DNA of 32,552 nt from an uncultured bacterium (GTDB taxonomy: Bacteria; Nitrospirota; Thermodesulfovibrionia; Thermodesulfovibrionales; CALJEL01). Numbering within the stretch: the first letter of the stretch is position 1; each line of letters opens with the position of its first letter. Below the pieces are notes generated by a model. The model was not told where the DNA came from, did no database searches, and was given only the letters and a program-made list of their open reading frames with translations. Shown in pieces: positions 3,101 through 32,552 of this stretch. The stretch lies in contig CALJEL010000075.1 in the NCBI GenBank assembly GCA_938074335.1, positions 1 through 32,552 of the forward strand, in the 5' to 3' direction. Made by a program: the position numbers and the translations under genes.

Positions 3101-5824
3101 ATGATAAAGGTAAAGATAGATGGAAAGGAATACAGGGTAAAACCTGGCATAACTATCTTACAGGTTGCAAGGGAAAATGATATCTATATCCCTACCCTCT
3201 GCGATGACCCGAGGCTTGAGCCCTATGGTGGCTGCAGGCTCTGTATTGTCCAGATCAAGGGCATGCCAAGACCTGTAACTGCCTGTACCACACCTGTAAC
3301 AGATGGTATGGAGATAACAACAACCAATGAATACATTGAGGGATTAAGGAAGACCATCGTTGAGCTAATACTCAGTGACCATCCCAATGACTGCATGGTC
3401 TGTGAAAAGGCAGGGGACTGCTCACTTCAGGAGCTTGCCTATTTTTATGGCATAAGGACTAATCCCTATTATGGAGAAAGAAGGAGATATACTACAAAGG
3501 ACAATAATCCCTTTATTGAAAGGGATATGGAAAAATGCATCCTCTGTGGCAAATGTGTAAGGGTCTGCAGTGAAGTTCAGGGAGTTGGAGCGATTGAGAT
3601 TGCCTACAGGGGATTCACTGCAAAGGTCACACCACCCTTTGAAAAGGACCTGAACTGTGAATTCTGCGGTCAGTGTGTGAGCATCTGCCCAACCGGTGCC
3701 CTCATGGGAAAATCATCCCTTGGAAAGGGCAGACAGAAAGATGTTAAAAAGATTGAGACCGTCTGCCCCTATTGTGGCTGTGGATGTAATATGACACTGC
3801 ATGTCTTAAGAAATGAGGTTATAAGGGTGAGTTCAAGGCCTGATAACTTTCATGAAGGCTGGCTATGTGTTAAGGGAAGATTTGGTTTTGAATTCATTAA
3901 TAGCCCTGATAGATTAAAAAGGCCCTTAATAAGGGTTAAACCAAGAGATAAAAATTCAAAAGAGCTCCCTGTTCCTGATCTCAATGACTTCAGAGAGGCA
4001 TCCTGGGATGAGGCCCTTGATCTTATAGCAAATAAACTCAGGGAGATAAAGGATAAATACGGTCCTGATGCAATAGCGGGTCTGAGCTCAGCAAGGTGTA
4101 CAAACGAGGAAAATTATATATTCCAGAAATTCTTCCGTGCTGTAATCGGTACGAACAATATAGATCACTGTGCCAGGTATTGACACAGTGCAAGTGTGGC
4201 AGGTCTTGCCACAGTATTTGGCTCAGGAGCAATGACGAATTCTATACCGGAGATAGAAAATAATGATCTACTCTTTGTAATTGGCTCTAACACAAAGGAA
4301 AATCATCCAATCATTGCCCTGAGGATGATACAGGCTGTAAGAAAGGGTGCAAAACTCATAATAGCAGATCCCAGAAGGGTTCCCCTTGTAAGGTTTGCAC
4401 ACCTCTGGCTTCAGCATAAACCCGGTACAGATGTGGCATTACTTAATTCAATCGCCCATGTGATTGTAAAGGAAGGATTGATAAAAAAGGAGTTTATAGA
4501 AACCCATACAGAAGGCTTCAATGAAGAATTTTTAAAGAACCTTGAGGAATATACACCTGAGGCTGGTGAAAGGATAACAGGTGTTCCAAAGGAAAAGATC
4601 ATAGAGGCAGCAAGGCTTTATGCAAAGGCTGAAAGGGCAGGCATATATTACACCATGGGTATAACTCAACATTCTCATGGTACAGACAATGTCTTTGCCA
4701 TAGCCAACCTTGCCCTTCTTACAGGAAATCTCGGAAAGGAATCAGCAGGAGTAAATCCCTTAAGAGGTCAGAACAATGTCCAGGGTTCAACTGATATGGG
4801 TTGCAGTCCTAATACATATCCTGGGTATCAGAAAGTTACAATCCCTGCTATAAAAAAGAAATTTGAAGACCTCTGGGGTGTAAGGCTTCCTGAAAAAGAA
4901 GGTCTCACTGCCTCTGAGATGCTCTTTGAGGCAGAGGCTGGCAGATTAAAGGCAATGTATATAATGGGAGAAAATCCTGTACTCAGTGACCCTGACACAG
5001 GTCATACTGTAAAGGCCCTTAAGGAGCTTGAATTTCTTGTTGTGCAGGACATATTCCTTTCAGAGACCGCTGCCATTGCTGATGTGGTATTGCCAGCCAC
5101 ATGTTTTGCTGAAAAGGATGGCACCTTTACAAATACAGAAAGAAGGGTCCAGAGGATAAGAAAGGCAGTAGCTCCACCTGGTGAGGCAAAGGATGACATA
5201 TGGATAATAAACGAGATAAGCAGGAGACTCGGTTATAATATGAACTATGCACATCCAGAAGAGATATGGAATGAAATAGGCATGGCCTGGCCAGCAGTGG
5301 CAGGAATAACCTATTCAAGGCTTGAAAGAGGCGGTATCCAGTGGCCCTGTCCAACAATAGATCATCCAGGCACCCCCTATCTCTTTAAAGGAGGCTTTCC
5401 TCGTGGAAAAGGTGCCTTTACAGTGATAAAATATAAACCATCCTGTGAGGAGCCAGACCTGGATTATCCCTTCATCCTTACCACAGGAAGGATGCTCTTT
5501 CAGTATCATACTGGTACCATGACAAGGAGGGTTAAGGCAATTGAGGCCCTTTATCATGAACCTTATGTTGAAATAAATCCAGAGGATGCCCTTGATCTGG
5601 GAATAAGAAATGGAGATACCGTGAAGGTAAGTTCAAGAAGGGGTTCTATAGTCCTTAAAGCGATGGTAACAAAGAGACCTGAAAGGGGTGTGGTCTTCAT
5701 ACCCTTCCACTTCAGAGAGGCAGCAGCAAATATGCTTACAAACAGTAAGGCCCTTGATCCATTGTGCAAGATACCTGAATTAAAGGTAACAACGGTAAAC
5801 ATAGAAAAATTTAAGGAGGATTAA
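3101..5824 (+). CDS. fdhA: Selenocysteine-containing formate dehydrogenase catalytic subunit (in-frame UGA read as Sec361)
   Basis: This is one 907-codon gene whose in-frame TGA at 4181-4183 is read as selenocysteine. Upstream part: NuoG-like [2Fe-2S] domain (Cys34, 45, 48, 62), the His-Cys cluster H94-x3-C98-x2-C101-x5-C107, two [4Fe-4S] clusters (Cys146/149/152/156 and 186/189/192/196), then the first molybdopterin-domain cluster (Cys222, 225, 229 and 256). The residues around the TGA (CARY-U-HSASVAGL) match the active site of FdhF-type enzymes, where Sec ligates Mo/W. The rest is the bis-MGD domain, with a C-terminal molybdopterin dinucleotide-binding segment (about residues 780-900). It interconverts formate and CO2 with the NuoE/NuoF-like partners. 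Split into two genes, the downstream half would lack the metal ligand and the upstream half the catalytic domain. A GGUCU-loop SECIS hairpin follows the TGA. Confidence 0.95.
4181..4213 (+). promoter_or_regulatory. Selenocysteine codon plus SECIS hairpin of fdhA
   Basis: The UGA (4181-4183) is followed by a perfect 7-bp stem, TGTGGCA (4195-4201) with TGCCACA (4207-4213), closing the loop GGTCT (4202-4206). The loop begins exactly 18 nt after the UGA. The E. coli fdhF SECIS has the same GGUCU sequence in its loop at the same distance (established knowledge), so SelB-dependent recoding is very likely. The host must encode selA, selB, selC and selD elsewhere. Confidence 0.93.
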
Positions 5825-16193: not shown

Positions 16194-17627
16194 TTAAGGC
16201 TTGAAGATGATCTTTATCCTTGCGCCTCGCTCAGACTCTATCTTTAAACATCCATTAAGGTCTTCCCTCACAATGTCAGACACAATCCTCAAACCAAGAT
16301 TGGCATCTCTTTCAATATCAAAATCTGGAGGAAATCCTATCCCGTTATCCGAGAACTCAAGGCTGACCATATTATCCTGCATCTCTATTATCTTCACATT
16401 AATTCTTCCAAAGAGTCTTTCTCTGAAACCATGCTTTATACTGTTTGTGACAAGTTCATTAAGAATTATTGCTATATTTGTTGCCTTTCTTGAATCAATA
16501 TATACAGATGAACCTGTTATCGAAAAATTGAGAAATTTATTTTCTATATTTGAAAGCTGAAGGCATGATTCTACAATCTTCTCGCAGAGCTCTGATAGAT
16601 TCACAGTGAAGCTATCCTCCTTTGAAAGGAGCTGATGGACATAGGCTATACTTCTCACCCTCATTAGGTTATCCATCAGGAGCTCCTTTGTTGAAGGTTC
16701 ATGGCACTGTTGAAGTTGAAGAAGAAAGAGGCCTGATAATATCTGGAGGTTATTCTTGATCCTGTGATGGGAATCCCTGCAGATATTGAGGATCCTCCTG
16801 TTCTTTTTTTCCATTATTGAATAAAGATGGCTATTTTCAATGGCAACGGATGCTATCCTGGCAATATTAGTAAGAAGTGATACCTCCTCAGCTGATAAAT
16901 AATGTATCCTATCAAGCATCATGCATATGAGTCCTGTAAGCTGGCTCTTTGTTAAAAGACCAAGACCTATCTTGGTTGATGACCCGGAAAAGGCTGGTAT
17001 GGTTACACAGTCCTCTGCCTCAATAAGCCTTGGTTTTTTTATATCATTTCCTGGTAGCCACTCAGCCTGTCTGTAACATCTGAAGCCTGAATCATTATAA
17101 AATGTATGATATACCGCTACGGGAGGTTTCTGCAGAAAAAGATCTCTACAGATAGCGGTCCCTACAGTCAATTCTTTTTCAACAAATTCGTGTTCCTCTC
17201 CGCAAAGGGCCTCAAAACTCAGGACAGTATCCAGCAGGACAGGACATTCAAAGCACACTGGCATCTTTTCTTCAAAACTTCCTGCTGAAGCATTATCTGC
17301 CCTGCACAGTGTTCCAGGTATTGACCAACATCTCAGGTCATCATTTCCGTAGGCTGGGCAGGTAACCTTTCCGCACTCCACATATTCCCAGCACTTTTTC
17401 AACTTATCTGGATTTAGTGACCAGAATACAACGGTCTTTGCATTGAGCAGGGGTTTTATGATCTCCAGTATATTAATTATGAGTGATTTTGACTTAGGAT
17501 AAGATATTATGGCATCAGATATAGCAAAGAGTGCCTCAATCGTCTTTTCTTGATATTCAATAATAGACCTTATCTTATCCGTCTCATTCAGCTTATTTTC
17601 TCCTATGTCAAAGGGGTAGTCCATCAT
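16194..17627 (-). CDS. Cytoplasmic sensor histidine kinase with Cys-rich GAF region (HisKA_2 type)
   Basis: There is a short N-terminal coil, then a GAF-like sensor domain (about residues 35-275) interrupted by a Cys-rich stretch with Cys79, 85, 90, 100, 108, 125 and 128 (CWE-x3-C, CPAY, RCW, GTLC, CFECPV). This is followed by the HisKA_2 dimerisation segment SHHRIKNNLQ, with His288 the probable phosphosite, and an HATPase_c domain (LNELVTNSIKHG as N-box, DNGIGFP as G1). The protein has no transmembrane helix. The cysteines suggest a bound metal or iron-sulfur centre used for redox sensing, which is inference. I chose ATG 17627; a GTG start at 17669 would add 14 residues and neither has a clear Shine-Dalgarno. 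It is divergent from the 15-heme cytochrome and likely partners the sigma54 activator encoded beyond it. Confidence 0.85.
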   Translation of the reverse strand: MMDYPFDIGENKLNETDKIRSIIEYQEKTIEALFAISDAIISYPKSKSLIINILEIIKPLLNAKTVVFWSLNPDKLKKCWEYVECGKVTCPAYGNDDLRCWSIPGTLCRADNASAGSFEEKMPVCFECPVLLDTVLSFEALCGEEHEFVEKELTVGTAICRDLFLQKPPVAVYHTFYNDSGFRCYRQAEWLPGNDIKKPRLIEAEDCVTIPAFSGSSTKIGLGLLTKSQLTGLICMMLDRIHYLSAEEVSLLTNIARIASVAIENSHLYSIMEKKNRRILNICRDSHHRIKNNLQILSGLFLLQLQQCHEPSTKELLMDNLMRVRSIAYVHQLLSKEDSFTVNLSELCEKIVESCLQLSNIENKFLNFSITGSSVYIDSRKATNIAIILNELVTNSIKHGFRERLFGRINVKIIEMQDNMVSLEFSDNGIGFPPDFDIERDANLGLRIVSDIVREDLNGCLKIESERGARIKIIFKP

Positions 17628-17705
17628 AATTTTTATGTGCAAAATTAATACCTGCACTAATTCTATCACAACATATAATGAATATTAAATAATCTTTTTT
17701 AAAAT

Positions 17706-17742
17706 GGGTGAAATCACCACTTCAATGGGTGAAATAACCCAT
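17706..17742. promoter_or_regulatory. Paired palindromic activator sites upstream of the 15-heme cytochrome gene
   Basis: GGGTGAAATCACC (17706-17718) and ATGGGTGAAATAACCCAT (17725-17742) are two copies of a dyad, spaced 21 bp start to start (two helical turns). The second has perfect 6-bp outer arms. The same pair recurs at 29203-29237 and I found no copies elsewhere in the window. They lie about 60 bp upstream of a sigma54-type promoter, as expected for an NtrC-family enhancer. Confidence 0.72.
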
Positions 17743-17808: not shown

Positions 17809-19068
17809 ATGAAGAATTTACTGGTAGTCTTAATAATGATGATACTCATTCCCGCACCTCTTTTTTCTGATGATTCCTGCACAGTGAGATGTCACCAGTC
17901 CATGCTCAGATCAAAAAACATCCATCCTCCTGCCTATTCCTGTGACACCTGTCATAAACCCTCAGGAGAAAAACACCCGGTAAAAAATAAAAAGAGCTTT
18001 GAACTTATATCAGAGGTTCCGTTAATATGCTGGACATGTCATCAAGAACCAGGGTCTTCTCCTTCAATTCATCTTCCCTTTAAACAGGGACGCTGCATGG
18101 AATGTCATAATCCTCATGAATCAGACAATAAGGGGCTGTTCAAAACTTCTTCTGAACAACTCTGCATCACCTGTCATAAGGACAAACAAGAGGCAAGATT
18201 TCTTCATGGACCCTCTGCTTCAGGAGATTGTCTGTTCTGTCATAATGGACACCAATCCGAGAATAAATACCTCTTAAGGCTCAAAGAGGAGGATCTATGC
18301 CTTGGCTGTCATAATGAAATGACCGAGGAGATGAAAAAAACATCTGTACATCCTGCCCTCCTTTCAGGTTGTTCTTCATGTCACAATGCCCATGGCACAG
18401 ATTTTAATAAATTTTTAATTAATATAGGAGACAGGCTCTGTTTCTCCTGCCATTCACAGATTGAAGAAAGGACGGCTAAGGCCAGGTCAGTCCATAGGCC
18501 GATCAGAACTGAAAAGGCCTGTGCCTCCTGTCATCTTCCCCACTCAAGCACTGGACCGAAGCTCATGGAAAAAACAGGCATAGAGGTATGTCTTGGATGT
18601 CATAGAACCATAATTGATACTAAAAGAGATAAATATCTCCATGGGCCTATTAATAATAAAGACTGCACCTCATGCCATGACAGCCATGGAAGCCTGTATA
18701 GAAAACTTCTTATCAAGGATTTTCCAGAGGATTTTTATATCTCCTATGATGAAAAAACCTATGAATTGTGCTTTTCCTGTCACAACAGGGACCTGCTTAG
18801 ATATCCAGACACAAGCTTTGCAACAGGGTTCAGGGATGGAAACAGGAATCTCCATTATCTACATGTTAATAAAAAAGACAAGGGAAGAAGCTGTAGATTC
18901 TGCCACACAATTCATGGAGGGACATTACCAAAACTGATAGTTGAAAAGGTAAGATTTGGAAACTGGGATCTTCCCATTGGTTTTTTAAAAACAGACACTG
19001 GAGGAAGCTGTGCTCCGGGATGTCACAGAAAATATAGTTACGATAGAAAATCTCCTCAGAAGAAATGA
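17809..19068 (+). CDS. Exported multiheme cytochrome c, 15 heme-binding motifs
   Basis: An N-terminal signal peptide (MKNLLVVLIMMILIPAPLFS) is followed by 15 heme attachment motifs in about 400 residues: 13 CXXCH (for example CDTCH, CWTCH, CMECH, CITCH, CLFCH, CRFCH) and two CX3CH, the first (CTVRCH) and the last (CAPGCH). The motifs come in pairs with a repeating layout, LCxxCH, about 20 residues, HGP or HP, CxxCH-x2-H, then LL, so the protein is built of tandem two-heme modules; the pentaheme lipoprotein at 26478 has the same module. It is probably a periplasmic or outer-surface electron-storage or transfer protein. It is followed by PilZ (4-bp overlap) and the sigma54 activator, and preceded by paired palindromes and a -24/-12 promoter. 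Confidence 0.93.
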   Translation: MKNLLVVLIMMILIPAPLFSDDSCTVRCHQSMLRSKNIHPPAYSCDTCHKPSGEKHPVKNKKSFELISEVPLICWTCHQEPGSSPSIHLPFKQGRCMECHNPHESDNKGLFKTSSEQLCITCHKDKQEARFLHGPSASGDCLFCHNGHQSENKYLLRLKEEDLCLGCHNEMTEEMKKTSVHPALLSGCSSCHNAHGTDFNKFLINIGDRLCFSCHSQIEERTAKARSVHRPIRTEKACASCHLPHSSTGPKLMEKTGIEVCLGCHRTIIDTKRDKYLHGPINNKDCTSCHDSHGSLYRKLLIKDFPEDFYISYDEKTYELCFSCHNRDLLRYPDTSFATGFRDGNRNLHYLHVNKKDKGRSCRFCHTIHGGTLPKLIVEKVRFGNWDLPIGFLKTDTGGSCAPGCHRKYSYDRKSPQKK

Positions 19069-19364: not shown

Positions 19365-19404
19365 ATATATGAAACACCTAAACTTTTTAAAACGGGGTGC
19401 CTAT

Positions 19405-20790
19405 ATGGAGGGGATTTATAATAACCCTGAAAGAGGCTCTATCTCAAAGAAAAAGGCCCTCGTTGTTGACGACGAGTCAATAATACGGCTATCTCTGAAG
19501 AGATTTCTTGAAGATGAGGGTTTCCATGCCCTTACTGCAAGCACAGGGATAGACGCACTTAAAAAGATTGAAGAGAACCAGCCTGATATAGTGATCCTTG
19601 ATATTCAGCTTCCTGACACAAATGGATTAACCCTTCTTCAAACAATCAAGGAGATGAATCCCTCCATAACAGTTATCATGATTACAGGGCATGCAGATGT
19701 AAAAGGTGCTGTTGAGGCAATGAAGATAGGTGCCCTTGATTATCTGAAAAAACCTATTGATTTTGAAAATCTCAAGTACACCCTTTCAAGACTGAGTTTA
19801 AAGTTTAAAGACATTATTGTTGAAGATGATGGTTTTATAACCATAAATCATAGAATGAAGGAAATATTCAGAGTAGCTGAAAGACTCGCCACAAAATCAG
19901 ATGTAACCATACTCGTTCTTGGAGAGAGCGGCACAGGAAAGAATTTTCTATGCAAAAAACTCCATGAAATAAGTCCAAGGAAGAACATGCCCTTTGTTGA
20001 GGTTAGCTGTTCAAACATCCCTGAACACCTCATTGAGAGCGAACTCTTCGGTTATGAAAAGGGTGCCTTTACCGATGCAAAGAACATGAAAAAAGGTCTC
20101 GTGGAGATCGCCCATGGGGGCACAATCTTTCTTGATGAGATAGGTGACATGCCCTATCCCATGCAGTCAAAACTCCTCACCCTTATGGAAGAGAAGAAGT
20201 TCAGAAGGATCGGTGGATTACAATATCTTAAGACAGATGTCAGAATCCTTGCTGCAACGAATAAAAATCTCCAGCAACTTGTCCATGAAGGAAAATTCAG
20301 GCTTGACCTCTATTACAGGCTTAATGTGGCTACTGTGGAGCTCCTTCCCCTGAGGGAAAGGAGAGAGGATATTCCACTACTTGCTGAGCATTTTCTTAAG
20401 CATTATATTAAAAAATATAACCACGAACCCAGGAGCTTCTCACCTGGGGTCATTGAAGCCTTTCTTAATTATCACTGGCCAGGTAATATAAGAGAATTAA
20501 AAAATCTCGTTGAAAAACTTGTAATACTTTCAAGTTCATCTGAGATAGGCATCCATGACCTGCCTGCCCACTTTCTAAAGTCCGATACCACAAAAAAGGA
20601 GGAGATGAAGATAACACAGGAAGGAACTGCCCTTTCTCTTAAGAACATAGAGATAGAATGCATAAAAAGGGCACTGAAACTTTCAAAGGGCAACCAGAAA
20701 AAAGCAGCCGAGATACTCAACATCACCAGGGATACCCTTCGCTATCGCCTGAAAAAATATGGTATAAAGGCATCTGAGTATAAATCCTGA
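19405..20790 (+). CDS. NtrC-family sigma54-dependent response regulator
   Basis: Receiver domain: acidic pair DD at residues 22-23, phosphoacceptor Asp66 in VILDIQLPD. AAA+ sigma54-interaction domain: Walker A GESGTGKN, the sigma54-contacting loop as GAFTDA (20062-20079) in place of GAFTGA, Walker B GGTIFLDEIGDM, and the RLDLYYRLN arginine region. C-terminal Fis-type helix-turn-helix (about residues 415-455; QKKAAEILNITRDTLRYRL). Once phosphorylated it would remodel sigma54 RNA polymerase at -24/-12 promoters. The ATG at 19405 has ggggtg at proper spacing; an in-frame ATG at 19369 adds 12 residues without a Shine-Dalgarno. It is the only sigma54 activator in the window and lies between two loci with paired palindromes and -24/-12 promoters, so it is their likely regulator, with the kinase at 16194 as cognate sensor. 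Confidence 0.93.
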   Translation: MEGIYNNPERGSISKKKALVVDDESIIRLSLKRFLEDEGFHALTASTGIDALKKIEENQPDIVILDIQLPDTNGLTLLQTIKEMNPSITVIMITGHADVKGAVEAMKIGALDYLKKPIDFENLKYTLSRLSLKFKDIIVEDDGFITINHRMKEIFRVAERLATKSDVTILVLGESGTGKNFLCKKLHEISPRKNMPFVEVSCSNIPEHLIESELFGYEKGAFTDAKNMKKGLVEIAHGGTIFLDEIGDMPYPMQSKLLTLMEEKKFRRIGGLQYLKTDVRILAATNKNLQQLVHEGKFRLDLYYRLNVATVELLPLRERREDIPLLAEHFLKHYIKKYNHEPRSFSPGVIEAFLNYHWPGNIRELKNLVEKLVILSSSSEIGIHDLPAHFLKSDTTKKEEMKITQEGTALSLKNIEIECIKRALKLSKGNQKKAAEILNITRDTLRYRLKKYGIKASEYKS

Positions 20791-20791
20791 A

Positions 20792-22540
20792 TCAGGGATA
20801 CCTTGAATTGGACTCATTATGATGCCTCCCATGACAGACCAGTACACAGGCACCTGAAAAAGTTCCGTAGTCAATAAATCTTGGATATAAATTTCCTTCA
20901 GCAGGCTGGGTGATCCTTGTATCAAAATTTATAAGATGACTGTGATCACCAGAATCAGGTGATAGTTCAACACCATGGGGATCGTGACAGGCTGCACAGC
21001 TAATATTGTTAAGAAGATGGCCGCTGTGGCCTCCCCTACCAGAAATATTCCTTTGAAAACTCTCATCACTCAGGATACTATCCCTGTTATGGCATCTGTA
21101 ACAAAGGGCATAACTATTATATGACTCAGGTGTCCCATCAGCTGTCTCATATCTTTCTGCAAGTATAGGTCTGAACTGGGAGCCATGAACACCCCTTGCA
21201 CCACCTCCGCCTGTGCTAGGGCTGTCATCAGCCTGATGACAATCACTGCATCTGATAATACTTGAAGGAGTGAGCTCAGGTCTCAGGCTACTGGGAATAC
21301 TCGGGACATCAGTGTTTTTGCCTGACTCAATTACAGGATGATAAGACGGATTTAATGGGTTGAACTCTATCCTTGTATTAACTGTATTTACAACCCTCGG
21401 CACAAAGGGAATTGAGCCACTTGAATCTCCATGACACTTAAAGCATATCTCATATTCATAACTGACATTTGTAACAAAGCCTCCATTTCTGTCAATTCCA
21501 TTAACATGGGTAAGCCTTCCTCCAGCATAAGGTGGGTCAGCAGGGCTATCATTTACAGTATGGGGATTATGACAGTCCATACACTCCACATGACCCCATA
21601 AGGGTATCTGCTCCTCAGGCAAATGATAAGAGGCAGTTAATCCAATAGTGGTATCCTCCACAGGATGTCTTGATATCCTCTGGAACTGGGAGTATACATC
21701 CTTCTGTGCAACATTCCCATTATGACATTTATAGCAATTCCTTTCCTCTTCCTGATGATAGAGTAATCTCCACTTCCCTCCTGCACCATGAGGTGTATGG
21801 CAATTTTCACAACCGTTCTCAGTAACCGTGAGCCAGCTAAAATCTGTTCCTCTTCCTGTAAAGGGCCATGGATCGGGTTCAACACCATTCCATGTGGCAA
21901 TAGAGGTTTTATGACTTGAGAATTCCCAGCCATTTTTCAGATGGCATTTCAGGCACAATCCTGAATATCTATTATCCATAGAAAGGAATTTTCCAAATTG
22001 ATTATTATGGGGGTCATGACAGGTAGAGCAATGAATATTATACTGGAATCCATAAAAGGTAAGGTCATAGGGTGGCACAGGCACTATCTCGGGATTTGAG
22101 AGAGAATCAAGATAAGAAAAGGAGACTGGATGGTCATCAGATAGATCAGTACCTATATAAGACCTTCTACCAGGTGTTATTGCTCCTGAGACCTCTATCC
22201 CGCCTGAGGGTCTGAGTACCATTCCTATTGCCAGTATGCCATCATGACAGCTCAGGCAGAGCCTTGAAGGCCCCTCAGGCTGCGATGGGGATGCCCTGAG
22301 GGTGGAGCTTGCATAGACATCATAGTTTACAGGTTCAAGTTCCCTGTTCCACAATGGTGTAAGGGGTTTTGCATTGTGAGGTGTATGACAGAATACACAT
22401 ATCCTTGTTTCTGAAAGGGCTTTTATCTCACCAGGCCCTGTCACGGATAGATTATGTTTTGTCCTGACGATATCGGTTGATGCCTGAAGGGAAGAGATGG
22501 TCAGTAAAAAAATGATTAATTCAATGAATATCTTTTTCAT
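20792..22540 (-). CDS. Exported 12-heme cytochrome c
   Basis: A signal peptide (MKKIFIELIIFLLTISSLQA) is followed by 12 heme motifs: 11 CXXCH (CVFCH, CLSCH, CSTCH, CLKCH, CENCH, CYKCH, CMDCH, CFKCH, CSDCH, CYRCH, CAACH) and a final CX3CH (CVLVCH), in 582 residues. The first four hemes and surrounding residues (CVFCHTPHNAKPLTPLWN, LCLSCHDG, HPVSFSY, IHCSTCHDPHN, LCLKCH) match the tetraheme cytochrome at 28258, so the N-terminal third is a paralogous module with eight hemes added. It is the last gene of the minus-strand conduit set; its start overlaps the end of the upstream NHL gene by 20 bp, with a gaggcagaggg Shine-Dalgarno. It lies convergent with the sigma54 activator, 1 bp between stops. 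Probably periplasmic or cell-surface. Confidence 0.93.
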   Translation of the reverse strand: MKKIFIELIIFLLTISSLQASTDIVRTKHNLSVTGPGEIKALSETRICVFCHTPHNAKPLTPLWNRELEPVNYDVYASSTLRASPSQPEGPSRLCLSCHDGILAIGMVLRPSGGIEVSGAITPGRRSYIGTDLSDDHPVSFSYLDSLSNPEIVPVPPYDLTFYGFQYNIHCSTCHDPHNNQFGKFLSMDNRYSGLCLKCHLKNGWEFSSHKTSIATWNGVEPDPWPFTGRGTDFSWLTVTENGCENCHTPHGAGGKWRLLYHQEEERNCYKCHNGNVAQKDVYSQFQRISRHPVEDTTIGLTASYHLPEEQIPLWGHVECMDCHNPHTVNDSPADPPYAGGRLTHVNGIDRNGGFVTNVSYEYEICFKCHGDSSGSIPFVPRVVNTVNTRIEFNPLNPSYHPVIESGKNTDVPSIPSSLRPELTPSSIIRCSDCHQADDSPSTGGGGARGVHGSQFRPILAERYETADGTPESYNSYALCYRCHNRDSILSDESFQRNISGRGGHSGHLLNNISCAACHDPHGVELSPDSGDHSHLINFDTRITQPAEGNLYPRFIDYGTFSGACVLVCHGRHHNESNSRYP

Positions 22541-23516
22541 CCCTCTGCCTCATTAGTTTGAAGACCTGAATCCTCTGGTTATAGGTATCACAGACATAAA
22601 TGACCTCAGAAGGATCAATAAAAATACAGGAAGGAAGCCAGAACTCAGCCTCTGCCTTTCCCCGTGCACCAAGTGTCAGAAGAAACTCTCCCTTTTCATT
22701 AAAGAGCTGGACATTATCAAAGAGGGAATCCACCACATAGATTATCCCATCCCTGTCAACGGCAACTCCTTTAGGCATGGAAAAATCGCCAGAACCATTT
22801 CCATGGTGCCCAAAGGTATTTATAAAAAGACCATCTCTGCTGAAAATCTGAATCCTGAAATTCATCGCATCAGTTATATACAATCTTTCAAGGATGGCTA
22901 TATAGGAAGGGAAATTGAATTCACCTGGCCTCTCACCCCTTCCTCCGAAAGTAAAAAGTAAAGTGCCATTATCTCCAATAGCACTCACAAGATTTTTTAT
23001 CGTATCAACAACATAAAGGGTTCCTGTCACCATGTCGCAGGCAATTCCTGTTGGTCTACTGAAACCATCTATAGATCCTGTGTATCTACCTTCATTATCA
23101 TAGATAAAAATCCTGCCACTCAAAGAATCGCTTACAAAGAGTCTGTTTCTTTTATCGAAGGCAACTCCTACTGGGGAGAGGAGCTCCCCTCTTTCTGTTT
23201 TAAATATACTTATATATCTCTCATCTCCTGGCACAAACAGATGAACGCATCTGCATCCTCCATCAGCTATGGCAATCCTTCCATCAGCTCCCCTTGCAAA
23301 TGCTAAAGGTTTAACAAGCCTTACCTCAGCCCTGCCAGTAAAGATAGAACGCATGCTTGAATCTCTTTCTTTAAAGCCATAAAGCCAGCCATCATAAACA
23401 ATCTTTCCTGACTGGTGATACCAGGAATGGGTAATAGAAGGATTCTGATAAAGGATTGTCCAGCGGGAACTGCAGGCTGAGATAAAAAACAGGATCAATA
23501 AGGATACCCATTTCAT
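22521..23516 (-). CDS. NHL-repeat beta-propeller lipoprotein
   Basis: I chose the ATG at 23516 because it gives a lipoprotein signal peptide (MKWVSLLILFFISAC, lipobox ISAC) and overlaps the stop of the upstream SurA-like gene as ATGA; longer upstream starts would put charged residues before it. The mature protein of about 315 residues consists of NHL repeats, such as LLSPVGVAFDKRNRLFVSDS, FSRPTGIACD with LYVVDT, FSMPKGVAVD with IYVVDS and LPSCIFIDP with VIYVCDTYNQRIQVF, and should form a six-bladed propeller anchored in a membrane. Such propellers commonly serve as protein-protein interaction scaffolds. Its setting among cytochromes and a barrel suggests it holds or docks conduit components; no catalytic role is visible. 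A paralogue is encoded at 27027. Confidence 0.88.
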   Translation of the reverse strand: MKWVSLLILFFISACSSRWTILYQNPSITHSWYHQSGKIVYDGWLYGFKERDSSMRSIFTGRAEVRLVKPLAFARGADGRIAIADGGCRCVHLFVPGDERYISIFKTERGELLSPVGVAFDKRNRLFVSDSLSGRIFIYDNEGRYTGSIDGFSRPTGIACDMVTGTLYVVDTIKNLVSAIGDNGTLLFTFGGRGERPGEFNFPSYIAILERLYITDAMNFRIQIFSRDGLFINTFGHHGNGSGDFSMPKGVAVDRDGIIYVVDSLFDNVQLFNEKGEFLLTLGARGKAEAEFWLPSCIFIDPSEVIYVCDTYNQRIQVFKLMRQRDEKDIH

Positions 23517-24421
23517 CTTTCTAAATCCCTTAGCCTTTCGTCGTATATCTTTATCTCTGCTTCCTTTCTCAATTCTTCTCTCCACTCCTTCTCCCTCTTT
23601 TTCAGTGCGTCAGGGAAAAGCCTTCCTTCAAGATAAACCCTCATCTCATCAAGAGATGGATACCTCTCAGGAGAATATTCAACAAGCTTTATTATATGAA
23701 GACCATCTGGTGCCCTGATAATACCTGAAAGCCTACCGATATTAAGTTTTTTTGCCTCTTCATAAAGTTCTCTCTGTTTAACCCTGTTAAGCCTGATCTG
23801 GTTTATTATGAATGTCCCATCCTGAACAAGCCTCCAGGGATCACCATTATATTCAACCTTTATCTTTGCTAACAAGGACTCTGCCTTCTTCATCGATTCC
23901 TCTGTATCCTGCAGGAATCTCACATCAACAACCACAACCTTTTCAGGGAGTTTAAACATCTCTTTTACCTCATCATATTTAGTTCTTATCTCCTCCTCTG
24001 AAATCACAACCCTCTTTACGACCTCTTCAGCATAGAGCATCTCTATGAGCATCTTTTTTTCAATTAATAAGGTAAGGGTTTCCTCTGAAAGGCCCTCTTT
24101 CTTAAGATAATCCCTGAATCCCTCCTCTCCAAGTTCTATCTTGAGCTCTACAATTGCATTTTTGATCTTTTTCTGATCAGGTCTTAAGCCGAGTTTTCTT
24201 GCCTTCTGAAAGGCGAGCTCCTCTGTGATTATATTATCAAGGGCTTCCTTTATAGAGGCATCTGATACCCCTTTGTGAGGAAGCAATCTTAGAAGTCGTG
24301 ACATATCTACAGGACTCCCATTTATCTCAGCCACAATAATCTCTGAAGACTCTTCTCCTGCGAGGCACTGAACTACAGATAAAGAGATTACAATTAAGGT
24401 CAGGAAAAAACCTCTAATCAT
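23513..24421 (-). CDS. SurA/PpiD-like periplasmic chaperone with parvulin-type domain
   Basis: A signal peptide (MIRGFFLTLIVISLSVVQCLA) precedes a SurA-N-like helical domain (about residues 28-150, including INGSPVDMSRLLRLLP and ITEELAFQKARKLGL), followed by a parvulin-like segment (about 155-255) that ends in the APDGLHIIKLVEYSPERYPSL region typical of SurA and PrsA. Parvulin active-site residues are not all obvious, so it may act only as a chaperone. The Cys in the signal region (VVQCLA) could be a weak lipobox. It is 11 bp downstream of the outer-membrane barrel gene, has an aggagg Shine-Dalgarno, and is coupled to the NHL gene by ATGA. Its likely job is folding the 669-residue barrel or the cytochromes of this cluster. 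Confidence 0.85.
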   Translation of the reverse strand: MIRGFFLTLIVISLSVVQCLAGEESSEIIVAEINGSPVDMSRLLRLLPHKGVSDASIKEALDNIITEELAFQKARKLGLRPDQKKIKNAIVELKIELGEEGFRDYLKKEGLSEETLTLLIEKKMLIEMLYAEEVVKRVVISEEEIRTKYDEVKEMFKLPEKVVVVDVRFLQDTEESMKKAESLLAKIKVEYNGDPWRLVQDGTFIINQIRLNRVKQRELYEEAKKLNIGRLSGIIRAPDGLHIIKLVEYSPERYPSLDEMRVYLEGRLFPDALKKREKEWREELRKEAEIKIYDERLRDLER

Positions 24422-24432
24422 TCTACGCCCTC

Positions 24433-26442
24433 CTAAAAGAGTCTTCTCTTTAGATTTATATAAAACAGTTCAGAAAATCTTCTTGTATCAATGGTATCTG
24501 AATATGTCTTGTTCCATTGAAGATTTACTCCAGCTACAAGATCAAGCATCCCTGCCCTGAATGAAAGGGAAGAAGAAAGAGAATAAGAATCAGCATCAGA
24601 AAGGGAATCCCTCCTTGTATATCGGGCACTGCTATTTAACCACATATTTCTATGAAATTTTTTTCTTATATCAATGGCACCTCCCTTTGTGGTCTCACTG
24701 TAATCTCTTTCAAGCATGTAACCTTTATGAAACCATGTCTCTGAATAGAAGATCCTTGACAAAATATGAAAAGAAGAATTTATATCAAGGCCATATCTGA
24801 ATTCTCCACGGAAAGAGTCTGAGGGGTTTATATTTGAATCCACATCCTGATATTGGAGGAAGAGATAATAGGGCCTTCGTGAGACGATCAAACCCATCGT
24901 ATCTATCTCTGTCTCGGGAAGCCTTCCCTCATAATAACCGGACCTGAGGGTTGTCCTCAAGCGACTGTGGCTATAATAGGGAGACAAAAGATTATTGAAT
25001 AAATCAAGCCGCAGGTTATAACCATAGGTATCTGTCTTTAATTCTGCCCCCCTGTCTTCTGTGCTGTAGGAGACAAAGAATTGATAGGTGATTATTGAAG
25101 GATTTACACTCCAGGCTCCTGGAGGCAGGTCAAGAACCCTTATCCTTGTAATATCACCAATGGTTGTAATCTCATAGTGAATCAGAGGTGTAAGTCTGTA
25201 AAGTATCCTGTTATCAGGGTTTTCCACATAAACCTCTATAGAAGATACAAGGATATTTCTTTCATTAAGATCAAATTCATCATTCCCTATCACACCTGGC
25301 TGTGCAGAATGCGGTTCTTTTATTATGCTTATTTCTCCTTTTCTATCATAAAGGGAGGTGCCTAAATTAAAACCTCCATTAAATCTGCCTCCACTGATAG
25401 ATTTTGTATAATTTGTTGAAAAGAAATGAGAAGTTGTCTTTACCTCACTGTCACTCTCCCTTAAAATATTATCCTCAAAGGATCTGGAAGATAGATAATT
25501 GAATCTGTAAGTAGAGCTCAGGCTTGCAAATAATTGATGGGAAAGACTGAAGAGGGCATCACTTACCTCACGCATTCTTTTAATCCTGTTATCAGCGGTG
25601 CTACCATCCTTTGTGTACCTGAAGGACAGACCTGATGAAAGACTCAAGGGCAATCTCAGGAGTAACCTCTCTGTCCAGCTAAAGGAATCTATATCCTGTG
25701 TCAGAAGGTCTCTATGTCTTGAACTGTCAAAGGATAAAGAGGAAACAAGGCTGAGGAATCCGAGATTTATGCTATTACCAAGCTGATAGAGCTCCCTTGA
25801 ATCTGAGCCAGGAGATTCGGTCTTTAAATATGAGCCTGTAAATGAAAGATTCCTCCCACCTTTAAATTCCCTGAAATATCTTAAGCTGTTACTGAATAAC
25901 CTTGTATCATATCTTATATCTTCCTGTCTGGTGGATACCTGAGAGTAAAGCATATTTAAGAAATAAGGTTTTTTTTCATATTTAAATTTCCCGCCCTCAA
26001 GCGTGCTCACAGCAGGGGATATCCTCATCAGGCCCTGCCTTGAAAGAGGCTCTTTCCTAACAAAGAAGAGCTCAAGATTATAGGGATGTTCAGGAAGTAT
26101 AAAATTCCTCCATTCATATTCAAAGGACGAGGCAGTCCACCAGGATGACCTCATGGTCTGTGTCCTGAAATCCTCATGCTTCAGACCTGCTGATGTCTTT
26201 AGATATATGGTGATAAATCTCGGATGGTATACATAACCCCTGAAGATAAAATTGAGTTTCTCCTTAAGGAAAATATCCCTCCTCATAAATCCACTCCCGC
26301 CTGTTCTGTTCTCGTCTTTGTCATAAGAAAAATTTAGCTCTATCTCCCCATTTGAATCGTAAAGTCGTGGTGTAAAATCAAGGGCATGGACACAGGTAAT
26401 ATCCATGAACAACAAAAATATCAAGATTAAAAATAATTTCAT
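24433..26442 (-). CDS. Outer-membrane beta-barrel protein, candidate porin of a cytochrome conduit
   Basis: A signal peptide (MKLFLILIFLLFMDITCVHA) is followed by about 650 residues of alternating polar and hydrophobic short strands rich in Ser, Tyr, Arg and aromatic residues (for example SLSFRYTKDGS, HSRLRTTLRSGYYEGR, WLNSSARYTRRDSLSD), ending in Phe (YINLKRRLF), the usual C-terminal signature for outer-membrane barrels. It carries no heme motif. I estimate more than 20 strands from the repeat pattern; a structure prediction would settle this. The pentaheme lipoprotein, tetraheme and 12-heme cytochromes, two NHL lipoproteins and a SurA-like chaperone surround it on the same strand. It is comparable in role, not demonstrably in sequence, to MtrB or the Geobacter OmbB porins. 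A substrate-uptake porin is the alternative. Confidence 0.82.
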   Translation of the reverse strand: MKLFLILIFLLFMDITCVHALDFTPRLYDSNGEIELNFSYDKDENRTGGSGFMRRDIFLKEKLNFIFRGYVYHPRFITIYLKTSAGLKHEDFRTQTMRSSWWTASSFEYEWRNFILPEHPYNLELFFVRKEPLSRQGLMRISPAVSTLEGGKFKYEKKPYFLNMLYSQVSTRQEDIRYDTRLFSNSLRYFREFKGGRNLSFTGSYLKTESPGSDSRELYQLGNSINLGFLSLVSSLSFDSSRHRDLLTQDIDSFSWTERLLLRLPLSLSSGLSFRYTKDGSTADNRIKRMREVSDALFSLSHQLFASLSSTYRFNYLSSRSFEDNILRESDSEVKTTSHFFSTNYTKSISGGRFNGGFNLGTSLYDRKGEISIIKEPHSAQPGVIGNDEFDLNERNILVSSIEVYVENPDNRILYRLTPLIHYEITTIGDITRIRVLDLPPGAWSVNPSIITYQFFVSYSTEDRGAELKTDTYGYNLRLDLFNNLLSPYYSHSRLRTTLRSGYYEGRLPETEIDTMGLIVSRRPYYLFLQYQDVDSNINPSDSFRGEFRYGLDINSSFHILSRIFYSETWFHKGYMLERDYSETTKGGAIDIRKKFHRNMWLNSSARYTRRDSLSDADSYSLSSSLSFRAGMLDLVAGVNLQWNKTYSDTIDTRRFSELFYINLKRRLF

Positions 26443-26477: not shown

Positions 26478-27014
26478 CTAATTCTTTAAAAGAAACCTGT
26501 CATTACCTGTATGGGCATCATGACAGTCAAGGCATCTGAAGTCTGGGTATCTATGAACATTATTCTTAAGGATATCTTTCCTGTCATGACAGTAAAGACA
26601 GAATTCTCCGGGTTCTGATACCAGCATATAGGCATAACCTGAACTGTGAGGCATATGACATACCCTGCATCCACCAGCAGCTATCGGACCGTGAAGCCAT
26701 TTTTTTTCCATATCCATATTGTGGCAGTAAAAACAGAGTCTTTCAGTAGGCATTATCAATTCATTCGTATCCTTTCTGTGGCAGCCAGAACACATCCTTG
26801 CAGCATAGGGACCATGCTCAGCAGGGATATGGAGTGCTTTCTTTTCTGAAAGATGTGAGTCTATCTTTTGTACTTTAGCAGTCAGACCTGATTCGGTTAT
26901 TTCTGGTCCCGGTACCCCGTCAAAAAAGAAGGAAAGTATTTTATACCTCTTCACTGGATCGGAACATCCAGAAAGAAGCATTACAATCAAGGATATTATT
27001 AAAAATCTTATCAT
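26478..27014 (-). CDS. Pentaheme cytochrome c lipoprotein
   Basis: A lipoprotein signal peptide (MIRFLIISLIVMLLSGC, lipobox LSGC) is followed by five CXXCH motifs in the C-terminal 105 residues: CSGCH, CFYCH, CRVCH, CLYCH and CLDCH. The spacing, with LHGPIAAGGC before the third and VHRYPDF before the fifth, repeats the two-heme module of the 15-heme protein at 17809. The N-terminal 70 residues are heme-free and probably a tether. Anchoring to the inner leaflet of the outer membrane beside the barrel (35 bp downstream) suggests the periplasmic half of the conduit. It starts 12 bp after the stop of the NHL gene; no clear Shine-Dalgarno is seen. Confidence 0.92.
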   Translation of the reverse strand: MIRFLIISLIVMLLSGCSDPVKRYKILSFFFDGVPGPEITESGLTAKVQKIDSHLSEKKALHIPAEHGPYAARMCSGCHRKDTNELIMPTERLCFYCHNMDMEKKWLHGPIAAGGCRVCHMPHSSGYAYMLVSEPGEFCLYCHDRKDILKNNVHRYPDFRCLDCHDAHTGNDRFLLKN

Positions 27015-27026
27015 GAGCTAATTGTT

Positions 27027-28184
27027 TTATTCTGATTTTTCACCCTCTGGTATATTCTGTTTTTCAAAGACCTGTTGTTTCTTTTTTACTTCTTCAAGGA
27101 GCTCCTGATCCGAAAGATACCTCATGCCTTTCTGCTTTCCAAAGGCATAAACATTCACCATCCTGTCACCAAACTGGCTTGTAACTAATACAATGTATTG
27201 AATCTCAAAATCAGGGGCAGCATGCTGTCTGAAATAATCAATATTGTTATAATCAATAACCACCTTTGCTGGAAGTACAAGCCTGCCAGGTTTTGTTCCC
27301 CCACCACCAAAAAACATCAGCAAAAAGCCATCCTTATTGAATATCTGGACATTAAAAAATGCTGCATCAGCCACATATACCCTTCCCTCTCTGTCAACAG
27401 CAACACCCCGTGGTCTTGCAAAATGACCCAGATTAACACCAAGCCTTCCTACTGTTCCTTTAAAATGTCCATCCCTGTCAAACTTTACAATCTGAAACCT
27501 TCCTGCATCACTCACATAAAGTGTACCCTCTTTATCAAAGACAAGATTTGTGGGTCTGTCAAGCCATTCAGAGGTATCACCTCTTCTTCCAAAGGTCCTC
27601 GTAATCTCACCTGTTAATTTGTCAAAGACCTTAATCTCGCCATTCTTTATATCGGCAACATATACCTCATCTTCAAAGGGGACTGCATCAACTGGTTTCC
27701 AGTCTCCTATAATTCCATAGGACTTTACATAGAGATCATTCCTATCAAAAACCACTACCTGCTTTCTTACAGGATCAGATATATATTTATTTCCCTCTGC
27801 ATCTATGCTTATATTTACAGGCTGCATGAGCTTGCCCTGACCCATTGCACCCTTCAGGTATTCATATCTTTTGTTCTTTAAATCGAAGATAATCACACCT
27901 GCATTTGTATCACAGACATATATCTTTCCATCATGTACTGCCACTCCATAGGGTTTGTCAAGCCTTCTCTCATCTTCTTTTTCACCTATTATGAATTTTT
28001 CAAAACCTGACTTTGGTGGCTCCACATCCTTTGCACCTGTAAAGGATGTCAGAAATTGTATCCTTGGAGGATCAGGCGGTTCCGGAAAAAATACAGGAGG
28101 TTCTTTTATCTCTACTTTATGTACAGCACAGGCAGAGATGATAAATAAGAATGATAAAAAAACTATTTTTAATACTGAAATCAT
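27027..28184 (-). CDS. NHL-repeat beta-propeller lipoprotein
   Basis: The signal peptide ends in a lipobox (LFIISAC). A Pro-rich linker (EPPVFFPEPPDPPRIQFL, about residues 28-45) precedes a propeller of NHL repeats: DKPYGVAVHDGKIYVCDT, MQPVNISIDAEGNKYISDP, DRPTNLVFDKEGTLYVSDA, ARPRGVAVDREGRVYVADA. The last 40 residues are charged and probably a flexible tail (ELLEEVKKKQQVFEKQ). At 385 residues it is longer than its paralogue at 22521, from which it differs in the linker and tail. The IQFLTSFTGAKD segment after the linker is often seen in NHL proteins beside cytochrome clusters. It probably scaffolds conduit components; no enzymatic residues are apparent. No Shine-Dalgarno is obvious at the ATG. 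Confidence 0.9.
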   Translation of the reverse strand: MISVLKIVFLSFLFIISACAVHKVEIKEPPVFFPEPPDPPRIQFLTSFTGAKDVEPPKSGFEKFIIGEKEDERRLDKPYGVAVHDGKIYVCDTNAGVIIFDLKNKRYEYLKGAMGQGKLMQPVNISIDAEGNKYISDPVRKQVVVFDRNDLYVKSYGIIGDWKPVDAVPFEDEVYVADIKNGEIKVFDKLTGEITRTFGRRGDTSEWLDRPTNLVFDKEGTLYVSDAGRFQIVKFDRDGHFKGTVGRLGVNLGHFARPRGVAVDREGRVYVADAAFFNVQIFNKDGFLLMFFGGGGTKPGRLVLPAKVVIDYNNIDYFRQHAAPDFEIQYIVLVTSQFGDRMVNVYAFGKQKGMRYLSDQELLEEVKKKQQVFEKQNIPEGEKSE

Positions 28185-29121: not shown

Positions 29122-29137
29122 AGCAATTCATATGCCA
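29122..29137 (-). promoter_or_regulatory. Sigma54-type -24/-12 promoter for the tetraheme cytochrome and conduit set
   Basis: On the minus strand the sequence reads TGGCATATGAATTGCT: TGGCA at -24, TTGCT at -12, with GG and GC exactly 10 bp apart. The transcript would start near 29111, giving a leader of about 65 nt before the tetraheme start at 29046. Confidence 0.72.
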
Positions 29138-29202: not shown

Positions 29203-29237
29203 GGGTGAAATGACCATCTTTTATGGGTGAAATGCTC
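29203..29237. promoter_or_regulatory. Paired palindromic activator sites between divergent -24/-12 promoters
   Basis: GGGTGAAATGACC (29203-29215) and GGGTGAAATGCTC (29225-29237) are spaced 22 bp start to start. The left halves are identical to the copies at 17706 and 17727; the right half of the second copy is degenerate. The likely ligand is the NtrC-family regulator encoded at 19405. Confidence 0.7.
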
Positions 29238-29300: not shown

Positions 29301-29316
29301 TGGCATAAACCTTGCT
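29301..29316 (+). promoter_or_regulatory. Sigma54-type -24/-12 promoter for the large cytochrome gene
   Basis: TGGCATAAACCTTGCT matches the -24/-12 consensus (TGGCAC-N5-TTGCT) except for one base, with GG-N10-GC. The transcript start would be near 29327, leaving about 48 nt that include the Shine-Dalgarno. Confidence 0.75.
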
Positions 29317-29374
29317 TATATCTAATGTGAACCCTTCTGGCAGGCATTAAAAAATAATGGAAGGAGGATTAGAA

Positions 29375-32300
29375 ATGAGAAGAGCTGTTCTCGCAACCAT
29401 ATTCATCTTTCTGATTGCCCTTTCTGGAGTAGCCCTTGGAGCCCATCCAGATGTGACAGTTAAAAATGCCGCTGGCAATCCTGTATCTGGAATCGAACCA
29501 TACAGCCCAAAACAGACATGCAGCGGCTGCCATATCCCTCAGTGTGAAGCTCCAACACCTGAAAATCCAAAGGGTTATTGCAACACCCAGCAACAGAACA
29601 GGGATGATTATGGAATAGGTTTAAAACAGGTCCAGCAGCATGTGGGAAGAATCCTTGCGGATGGCACAGTGACATTCGCCTCTCAGACAGTGAACTCCTT
29701 TGAACACGGAGTATCAGTTGGTAAGCACATGAATCTGGGAAGAAATGAGGCTTACACAGCTCAGATGAGGACAGTCTGGAAACAGGCCTTCTTCACAAGT
29801 TCACCAGGGATGTTTGGAAGGTTTTGACCTCCATCGAACCGCCAGTTGGCGGCAATGCATATTAATATGACTGGTGATCCCTATGGCAGGCAGCTTGAGG
29901 CATCACCACCAGACTGGGTAAAGACCTGTGGAGCCTGTCATGTTGGTGGTGGCCAGCTTGAATATGACAGGACAATGAATCCGTATGGACCAAATTCTCC
30001 TGCTGGTGACAGATATATCTATATAAAACCTCATGTAGACCCGCAAAGTGGTGAAATTATGGCTGGAGGCATATATGATATCTCCCAGACACCAGAACTC
30101 CAGCAAACTGAATTATATGGCTCAAACAATGTAGAGGTTGACTGCATGCTTTGCCATTCCATGGATGCAAGACCTATGGTAGCATGGTATATGTCAATGG
30201 GCTGCGGTCAGGGTGGCATACCGGGCCCAAAAAATGACCCTGACTGTTCAACTGATCCAAGATTTAATTACCAGCCAGGCCAGATCTATGATATTTATAA
30301 CAGAAACCTTGCACTTCTGATGGGTAGACTAAATATTACTGCAACAGCAGGGCTTGGCGTGCCTGTAAATCCCATGACAGGTGAACTTATGGTAAACACA
30401 CCTCAAACAATACCTGGGACAACCATTGCCTCAAAACCAGGGTCAAAAAACTGTGCCCAGTGTCATGCAAGGGATGAAGACACAGTGGGTCTTCCAGGGA
30501 TGAGTGCCATGCTTGCTGGATTTGGAAACTATGCAAGGATAACAATGCCTGGCTATGGATTTGACTTTGATGAGATATCTTCAACTGGCACATGCAATCC
30601 ATCAGATCCTTCAAGGGATTGTAAAAATAATAGTATGTGGTTTGAACTGGGCTGTAAAACAGGTATGGGCAAAAGGGCACAGAAGACAGGTCAGGGCTCA
30701 AGTGATAAATTCGGTCCATCCGGGATGTGTATTGTCTGTGAGCAACTTGCCTGGAGTCAGGGTATCTGTTTGAATCAAACCCTAAAAAATTACTGCGCCT
30801 GGCTCGGTGTGAGCATAGACAATAATCCAATGAATGATATTGGCAGACCTATACCAAACAAGATGCCTGACACAGATGTCCATGATGCAGCTAATATGAA
30901 ATGTGCTACCTGCCATTACAGCCTTGAAGGTACAATTCCCTCAAAAACCTATGGTGGTGTCAACTATCCAGAGGAAAATATTCAGAAGATAGACCACCAG
31001 TTTGCACAGGGATATTCAACTGTTGAAAAATCAAAAGACAACCTTGATGGTACAGTTACCTGTGCAAGCTGTCATATAACAAAGGAACATCCAAACTCAT
31101 CGGGTGCACCAACACCGGCTCATGCAAACTTCCCGTCCATTCATTTCCAGAAGATAGATTGTAGAACCTGCCATATACCAAGTGTCTATTCAGCACCTGG
31201 AAAACTTAAATACAGAGACTGGACAGTTGGATGGTTTAGAGGACTCAACAGAAATCAGCTTGACTGGAACTTCAACATGCTTACAGGTTCACATGACCCA
31301 ATGCCTGCTTTAAGGGCATGGATAACCACACCAGAGGGGACAAAGATTGCTCCTGTACTACCCACTGTACAACCTATATGGACAGAAAAGCTCATAATAA
31401 ACGGGAATCCTGTATGGGTACCCACAAAGACAAGGGATGTAGCAAATGCTGCTGCCATTGTAAAGGGAAAGATGAATGATGGACTGCTTCAAGGAGTAAA
31501 CTTTACCATTAATGGAGCAAATGTAATACCTCTCTTTGATGGATTCCAGCTTGCTGATGCACTTGCTATTGACACAAAGGCTGATATTGATGCCATGGTT
31601 GATGAGCTCATGAATAGCAATGGTAACGGACTCGCTCCCCATGCCCAGCTGGATGATCCAAAGCTCGGCATGTTCCAGTTATTCTTTGATCCAGGTCATG
31701 GTGTTGTACCAAAGCAATATGCCCTTGGTGGTTCAATGACAGGTGGATGCATTGCCTGCCATTCAAGCTCAGACCCTACATCTAAGAACTACAGTCCTAA
31801 ATCAACTGGATTCTTTGACAGAAATCAGGAGCTTCTGGAACACCCCTTGAGCCAGCTTGCTGATTATGACTGTGATATACTTGTGCCTGCTGTGTTTCCT
31901 GATGTACCCACATGTAAGGCATACATTGGTGGAAAGCTTATGCCAGGCCTTGGTCTTTCAATGGATGGAATTGATTTCATACAGATGATGGCAATCAAGG
32001 AAGGAGACCCTGACTGCAATCCCATGATGCAGATATTCGGGCTTCCAGCAAACTGTGATCCTCAGGTAATTCTCTCAAGGGATGAGGTAAGACAGCGCTT
32101 TGCTACAAAACTCCAGCAGAGCACATTTAATGGTTCAAACAGGGTTGTATGGAATATCGCTGTTGAGAAAAACCCTGGTAATCCAGGACATCAAAACTCC
32201 TGGGATCAGGCAACCATCTGCTACAATCCATTAACAGGTGAGACCATGCCCTGCACAGATGGAGGTATGATACTTACAGTGGTCAATTCAAACCAGCTTT

Positions 32301-32552
32301 TGGGGTATGATAGCGCTACCCTATCCAAACTTACAGATCCATCAACAGCGGGTATCCCAAAACCAATAGCTCAATTCACTTACTCCATTAGCGGTCTCAC
32401 CGTTTCTGTTGAAACCTCCTCCGCTGCCTGCTCAAGCTCTGACTGCTCCTATAACTGGTCATTCGGTGATGGCTCCATTGCCTCAGGTCTCACTGCCACC
32501 CATTCTTACTCTGCTCCAGGCGACTATAACCTTAAACTCACTGTTGTTGACA
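29375..32552 (+). CDS. Large exported multiheme cytochrome c with PKD domain and in-frame UGA (possible selenoprotein); runs off right edge
   Basis: I chose ATG 29375 (aaggagg 7 bp upstream) over ATG 29357; it starts with the signal peptide MRRAVLATIFIFLIALSGVALGA. Codon 151 is TGA (29825-29827); the frame then stays open to the window end, and both sides belong to one cytochrome: CSGCH before it, and CGACH, CMLCH, CAQCH, CATCH, CASCH, CRTCH and CIACH after it (8 sites), plus a CIVCE lookalike. A C-terminal PKD domain (YNWSFGDGS, HSYSAPGDYNLKLTVVD, about residues 1000-1059) suggests surface location. The downstream part alone would lack a signal peptide, so separate genes are unlikely. A hairpin after the TGA fits the bacterial SECIS pattern, so Sec is the favoured reading; a recent nonsense mutation or a sequencing error are the alternatives. 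It is controlled by a -24/-12 promoter and is divergent from the conduit set. Confidence 0.82.
29825..29852 (+). promoter_or_regulatory. In-frame UGA and SECIS-like hairpin in the large cytochrome gene
   Basis: The UGA at 29825-29827 is followed by CCGCC (29839-29843), loop AGTT (29844-29847) and GGCGG (29848-29852), an all-GC 5-bp stem. The loop begins 16 nt after the UGA and has G at its second position, which meets the general bacterial SECIS pattern (short stem, small loop with G in the first two bases, 16-37 nt away). The loop is not the GGUCU seen in fdhA here. Confidence 0.55.

Follow-up and report, generated by a model that had tools for sequence, protein, structure and literature searches.

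At the right-hand end of the window (the whole 32,552-nt stretch of DNA that was analysed), a reading frame from the ATG at 29375 runs for 1,059 codons to the contig end at 32552, and its sole in-frame stop is a TGA at codon 151 (Table 1). After this TGA, 908 codons without a stop lead to the contig end; one CXXCH motif precedes the TGA and seven follow it, and a PKD domain sets in at about residue 1006. The first-pass annotation had described a cytochrome frame with a signal peptide, interrupted at codon 151 in the context GMFGRF-U-PPSNRQLA and continuing with seven more CXXCH motifs and a PKD domain, and all of these features were found as claimed. An RBS-like GGAGGA lies immediately 5' of the ATG at 29375, and the alternative in-frame ATG at 29357 is the less likely start. 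The promoter and the 3' end of the gene fall outside the range of that annotation (29375-32552). The genome has a paralogue on contig C49, and this gene too is cut by the end of its contig. The final 141 bases of C49 and of the contig of the window, C75, are identical (window 32412-32552; L018 3667-3807) and belong to the PKD region of both paralogous Sec cytochromes, so a repeat probably caused the assembly break here. When all six frames of the whole window were searched for TGAs flanked on each side by no fewer than 120 open codons, only two were obtained, namely the one in fdhA (4181) and codon 151 of the cytochrome gene.

Table 1. Positions of the Sec cytochrome gene, its internal features and its neighbours in the window.
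Feature	Position	Strand	Basis or remark
Predicted Sec octaheme cytochrome gene	29375..32552	+	Signal peptide, 8 CXXCH, Sec151 (UGA), start of PKD domain; truncated by contig end
Heme 1 motif CSGCH, residues 49-53	29519..29533	+	Conserved in family alignment
In-frame UGA, predicted to be read as selenocysteine	29825..29827	+	Column holds UGA in 11 genes, Cys in 7
SECIS-like hairpin CCGCC-AGUU-GGCGG	29839..29852	+	Conservation in Sec genes
Heme 2 motif CGACH followed by GGGxxEYDR, residues 185-199	29927..29971	+	Invariant in family alignment
Invariant Lys433-Arg434	30671..30676	+	Lys aligned with OTR Lys153 in short subfamily
fdhA, internal standard of the window	3101..5824	+	UGA at 4181-4183 and SECIS hairpin
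Sigma-54 -24/-12 promoter-like site TGGCATAAACCTTGCT, Sec gene	29301..29316	+	Pattern match
Sigma-54 promoter-like site TGGCATATGAATTGCT, divergent operon	29122..29137	-	Pattern match
Pair of GGGTGAAAT repeats between the divergent promoters; may be activator sites	29203..29233	+	Sequence
Divergent cytochrome, 262 aa	28258..29046	-	Conserved neighbour in 4 other genomes
NHL-repeat protein	27027..28184	-	Annotation of cluster
Small multiheme lipoprotein-like cytochrome	26478..27014	-	Annotation of cluster
Presumed outer-membrane beta-barrel, 669 aa, C-terminal Phe	24433..26442	-	No Pfam/NCBIfam match
PpiC/SurA-like peptidyl-prolyl isomerase	23513..24421	-	Annotation of cluster
Multiheme cytochrome	20792..22540	-	11 CXXCH in G001 homologue
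NtrC-type sigma-54 response regulator, candidate activator	19369..20790	+	Annotation

Homologues were sought in 61 relatives first and then in the order, a sample of the phylum and the class, and the family was counted as 18 genes with remnants excluded. A single in-frame TGA occurs in 11 of the 18 genes, from eight genomes (two genes each in G000, G144 and G357, and one each in G001, G124, G198, G213 and G223), and without exception it falls in the alignment column that corresponds to codon 151. In the other seven genes (from G010, G118, G126, G213, G223, G231 and GWC2_56_14, the contig of the last being apparently identical to that of G247) this same column holds Cys, and G213 and G223 each possess one Sec copy and one Cys copy. 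The alignment that the first-pass annotation had recommended thus returned either Cys or UGA at exactly this position. The surrounding peptide follows the motif S-P-G-M-x-G-x-x-[U/C]-P-P-S-N-R-Q-L-A in the main part of the family and SPGNYGGxW-[U/C]-SPAPLYRxLA in a third subfamily. On a tree of 17 rows, four changes between the Sec and Cys labels are needed, three of which are forced by well-supported branches. A search of a plasmid collection gave a single match, which was to PKD only.

These data bear on two readings in which no selenocysteine is involved. The first is that the TGA arose by chance, through decay of the gene or a sequencing error, and individual copies in the family are indeed defective. 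The G001 copy, from the same genus, has a frameshift just before the UGA (L023:10165-10185, G001:C5), which is an assembly error or a recent mutation because the downstream sequence is still under strong purifying selection; the G084 copy (L081:1-460, G084:C49), which retains the TGA and PPSNR and loses the frame right after, is a decayed remnant and was dropped as a Sec gene. Against such an origin of the TGA stand its recurrence in 11 genes at one column, where TAA or TAG never occurs, a dN/dS of 0.10 downstream of the UGA (C49 gene versus its G001 orthologue, from two species) and the frozen hairpin codons described below. The conserved column refutes the explanation for the family, and we regard it as extremely improbable here; neither a non-Cys residue in homologues nor further stops nor decay, which had been named in advance as refuting outcomes, was found for this gene. 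The second reading, a 150-residue peptide ending at the UGA followed by a separately initiated cytochrome, could make use of the TTG within the hairpin, from which a frame could start at 29846. Nevertheless, the Cys homologues run unbroken across this point, and the downstream piece would lack the signal peptide needed for heme attachment, which makes two proteins scarcely credible.

The hairpin begins 11 nt past the UGA, with 5-bp stem arms CCGCC (29839-29843) and GGCGG (29848-29852) around an AGTT loop. It had been noticed in the first-pass annotation as lying at the distance expected of a bacterial SECIS, and in the centroid fold the stem of fdhA indeed has an identical offset from its UGA. 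Ten Sec genes have TGACCxCCxTCxAACCG[C/T]CAGTTGGCGG in common, which gives CCGCC-AGUU-GGCGG with a G-U in the loop; in one G144 gene a C-G pair of the stem has become T-G with pairing retained. Since the hairpin overlaps the codons for N-R-Q-L-A, conservation of the protein had to be separated from conservation of the hairpin, and we examined the 45 columns of the 10 Sec genes in which the residue is invariant and its codons are four- or six-fold degenerate. One codon was used in at least 90% of the genes at only three of the 45 columns, those of Arg156 (CGC), Leu158 (TTG) and Ala159 (GCG), all of which are hairpin codons; Pro152, Pro153 and Ser154, directly upstream of them, are each encoded by three or four codons. 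The hairpin is kept beyond the needs of the protein. In the Cys genes, which specify a near-identical peptide, other codons or a broken stem are found and the hairpin is gone. The third-subfamily Sec gene of G124, in which RQLA is replaced by RGLA (Q to G), has a hairpin of its own, CCGC-GGUCUU-GCGG, and this type is absent from its Cys orthologues. The folding energy of the cytochrome hairpin did not differ significantly from that of shuffled sequences (z -1.2) and was not used as evidence; such z-scores of short hairpins were uninformative for the cytochrome gene and fdhA alike, so the evidence for the hairpin is its conservation. An Rfam scan of the window gave no family at threshold.

The genome encodes a tRNA-Sec(UCA) (C97:21351-21444, 76 bits), in which ARAGORN concurs, and a SelB (C8:41740-43581) that scores 398.8 bits (cut-off 242). 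Together with the Sec-containing FdhA and its SECIS hairpin, these genes are in line with the earlier statement that this organism uses selenocysteine. Of the eight genomes that carry a Sec copy, seven have a SelB above the cut-off; in the eighth, G213, tRNA-Sec was present and a full selB was not found. A second tRNA-Sec-like RNA is also present in the genome (G000:C110:2178-2292; L080, minus strand); it scores 57.7 bits, its variable arm is long, and by its sequence it is of the selC-like tRNA-Cys kind already reported from Nitrospirae. Some RNAs of this kind in other bacteria carry a UCA anticodon (PMC7609411), and the presence of one here lends some weight to the idea that UGA stands for one of the standard amino acids, being read either as Cys by such a tRNA or as Trp under a changed code. 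Its anticodon, as read from its loop, is GCA and not UCA; UGA terminates 6 of the 23 listed genes of the window, so the code is unchanged, and the homologues hold Cys rather than Trp. Moreover, a true tRNA-Sec(UCA) and selB are present, and ordinary decoding would leave the SECIS-like hairpin unexplained; we therefore consider it very unlikely.

Selenocysteine insertion at codon 151, which the first-pass annotation had put forward as a possibility, is thus strongly supported by the conserved column, the conservation of the hairpin, and the tRNA-Sec(UCA) and selB genes. SelB carrying Sec-tRNA(UCA) would bind the hairpin and selenocysteine would be inserted, as in bacterial FdhA, at the site where relatives place Cys. 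On the evidence of these genes, the product is almost certainly an octaheme c-type cytochrome that is exported and has a single selenocysteine, encoded by the UGA at codon 151, and taken as a whole this appears with high probability to be the best explanation.

In an alignment of 15 family members, the eight heme motifs, the Cys/Sec, Arg156, Leu158 and several His residues are conserved, as are CxxCHxGGGxxE[YH]DR at heme 2 and Lys433-Arg434 after heme 4. Comparison by hhalign with an alignment of the family of octaheme tetrathionate reductase (OTR) gave a match of 99% (E 4.5e-18) covering hemes 5-7, and all eight hemes are in register with those of OTR in the same order, hemes 1-4 in a forced full-length alignment only. 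With 29.8 bits the Sec cytochrome stays far below the TIGR04315 cut-off of 375 and by this criterion falls outside that family. OTR (TIGR04315; PDB 1sp3) resembles the new family in having a Cys between hemes 1 and 2 (chain position 64, counted on the alignment, as was Lys 153) and a Lys just past heme 4. We take Cys64 and Lys153 to be active-site residues and Lys153 to be the ligand of the active-site heme (Mowat et al. 2004). The invariant Lys433 aligns with OTR Lys153 in the short subfamily, where KKRG pairs with VKHG of OTR. As for Sec151 and Cys64, hhalign aligned the N-terminal half only when forced and left the two residues unpaired, both lying between hemes 1 and 2, so their equivalence is something that we infer. 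Unlike OTR, the Sec cytochromes are two to three times longer and have PKD domains, and the spacing from the Cys/Sec to heme 2 is about 30-34 residues in the family versus about 12 in 1sp3. The longest relative has two PKD domains, and in the short third subfamily hydrophobic stretches occupy the C-terminus instead. Sequence comparison supports an OTR-like fold for the family, and the Sec cytochrome quite probably belongs to the wider OTR superfamily as an enlarged member with C-terminal PKD domains. A PDB search with the family profile returned PKD domains and chance matches only, and AlphaFold models reached pLDDT values of 53 (family, 15 sequences) and 42 (short subfamily, 17 sequences), both too poor to use. 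Among TIGR04315 members above the cut-off in 246 genomes, none had an in-frame TGA.

As to function, the first-pass annotation had suggested a redox or metal-ligating role for Sec151, and the residue may have such a role. The Sec, lying between hemes 1 and 2 like the OTR Cys, may be placed at a lysine-ligated catalytic heme and act as a redox nucleophile or ligand in the reduction of a small inorganic substrate, a proposal that we regard as evenly balanced. A sulfur or selenium oxyanion as the substrate would be a guess, made because of the analogy with OTR and ExtKL (PMC5877670). Many multiheme cytochromes at cell surfaces do no more than carry electrons, and His/Cys heme ligation exists (TsdA, PMC5146829), so the Sec could instead be a structural residue or a heme ligand in a non-catalytic electron-transfer cytochrome. 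We hold this to be a possibility of some substance, though one that we would not favour, since the interchange of Cys and Sec, the invariant GGGxxE.DR after heme 2 and the invariant Lys that pairs with OTR Lys153 are consistent with an active site of the OTR kind. An active-site role of the Sec is plausible.

The Sec gene is transcribed away from a cluster encoding cytochromes, NHL proteins, a PpiC-type isomerase and a 669-aa protein, presumed from its C-terminal Phe and signal peptide to be an outer-membrane beta-barrel. Homologues of this cluster adjoin a family gene in G001, G144, G223 and GWC2_56_14. With regard to a porin-cytochrome conduit, the cytochromes were confirmed, and the presumed barrel was without a family match. 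The window as a whole has just three matches to the sigma-54 -24/-12 pattern; a site of this type was found within 350 bp of 8 of 15 family genes and of all five divergent operons checked. The NtrC-type regulator encoded at 19369 may jointly control both promoters. A second pair of GGGTGAAAT is present at 17706 and 17727 (17706-17735), between a histidine kinase gene (16194-17669) and a multiheme cytochrome gene (17809-19068). Because of the PKD domains and the gene order, electrons might arrive via the adjoining, co-regulated cytochrome/porin-like cluster under sigma-54 control and the enzyme might be located on the outer surface, to which we would give an even chance. It is more tentatively suggested that the family comprises surface-exposed selenoenzymes of Nitrospirota, that is, enlarged OTR-like octaheme cytochromes in which a Sec catalytic at a lysine-ligated heme would receive electrons through a sigma-54-controlled cytochrome/porin conduit and reduce an extracellular acceptor. 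In G144 (L044:12225-15660), four consecutive six-heme cytochrome genes directly follow a tandem pair of Sec cytochrome genes.

The first-pass annotation knew of no established selenoprotein family of multiheme cytochromes, and in this respect it has to be corrected. ExtKL and one OTR-family entry have been listed as Sec cytochromes (PMC1914089, PMC13188914), the latter being a TIGR04315 member annotated in GenBank as a selenoprotein (PMC13188914). Sec-containing multiheme cytochromes were therefore known before, and what is new is the present family. ExtKL of Geobacter (NF040886), for which a SECIS was not found (Fujita 2007), is likewise a multiheme c-type cytochrome with one predicted Sec, followed in both cases by P-x-x-N-R; unlike the new family, it has five hemes and its Sec is in a C-terminal domain past the hemes. 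NF040886 did not match the Sec cytochrome up to E 10, and blastp gave no meaningful match. The GSU2204 family (NF041027), a listed selenoprotein with a CXXCH motif and an outer-membrane setting (PMC13188914), is, unlike the Sec cytochrome, a beta-barrel family, and it also gave no match up to E 10. FdhA of the window shares the decoding system and the hairpin offset, but is an unrelated molybdenum/tungsten enzyme. No NCBIfam model (June 2026) reaches its cut-off on the new family, which is apparently unlisted in a 2026 inventory of prokaryotic selenoproteins, as judged from the open-access literature; RefSeq may already annotate some members with Sec. From these comparisons of sequences and lists, the family is very probably a real and so far unlisted selenoprotein family of Nitrospirota.

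With it, a phylum little studied for selenium gains a selenoprotein family. Such genes are usually annotated as two broken pieces, so that the annotation of these genomes misses a large exported cytochrome. Sec and Cys versions occur as natural pairs, some of them within one genome, and allow a direct test of the benefit of selenium to a heme enzyme; selenium supply would also be tied to extracellular electron transfer. The same genome also encodes an ExtKL-type selenocytochrome with one TGA (L107, G000:C20:1883-3109), whose context GHRIPDG-U-PSPNR is similar to UPPSNR in the new family; 3' of its TGA the sequence could form a small CAGG-CUGGU-CCUG hairpin.
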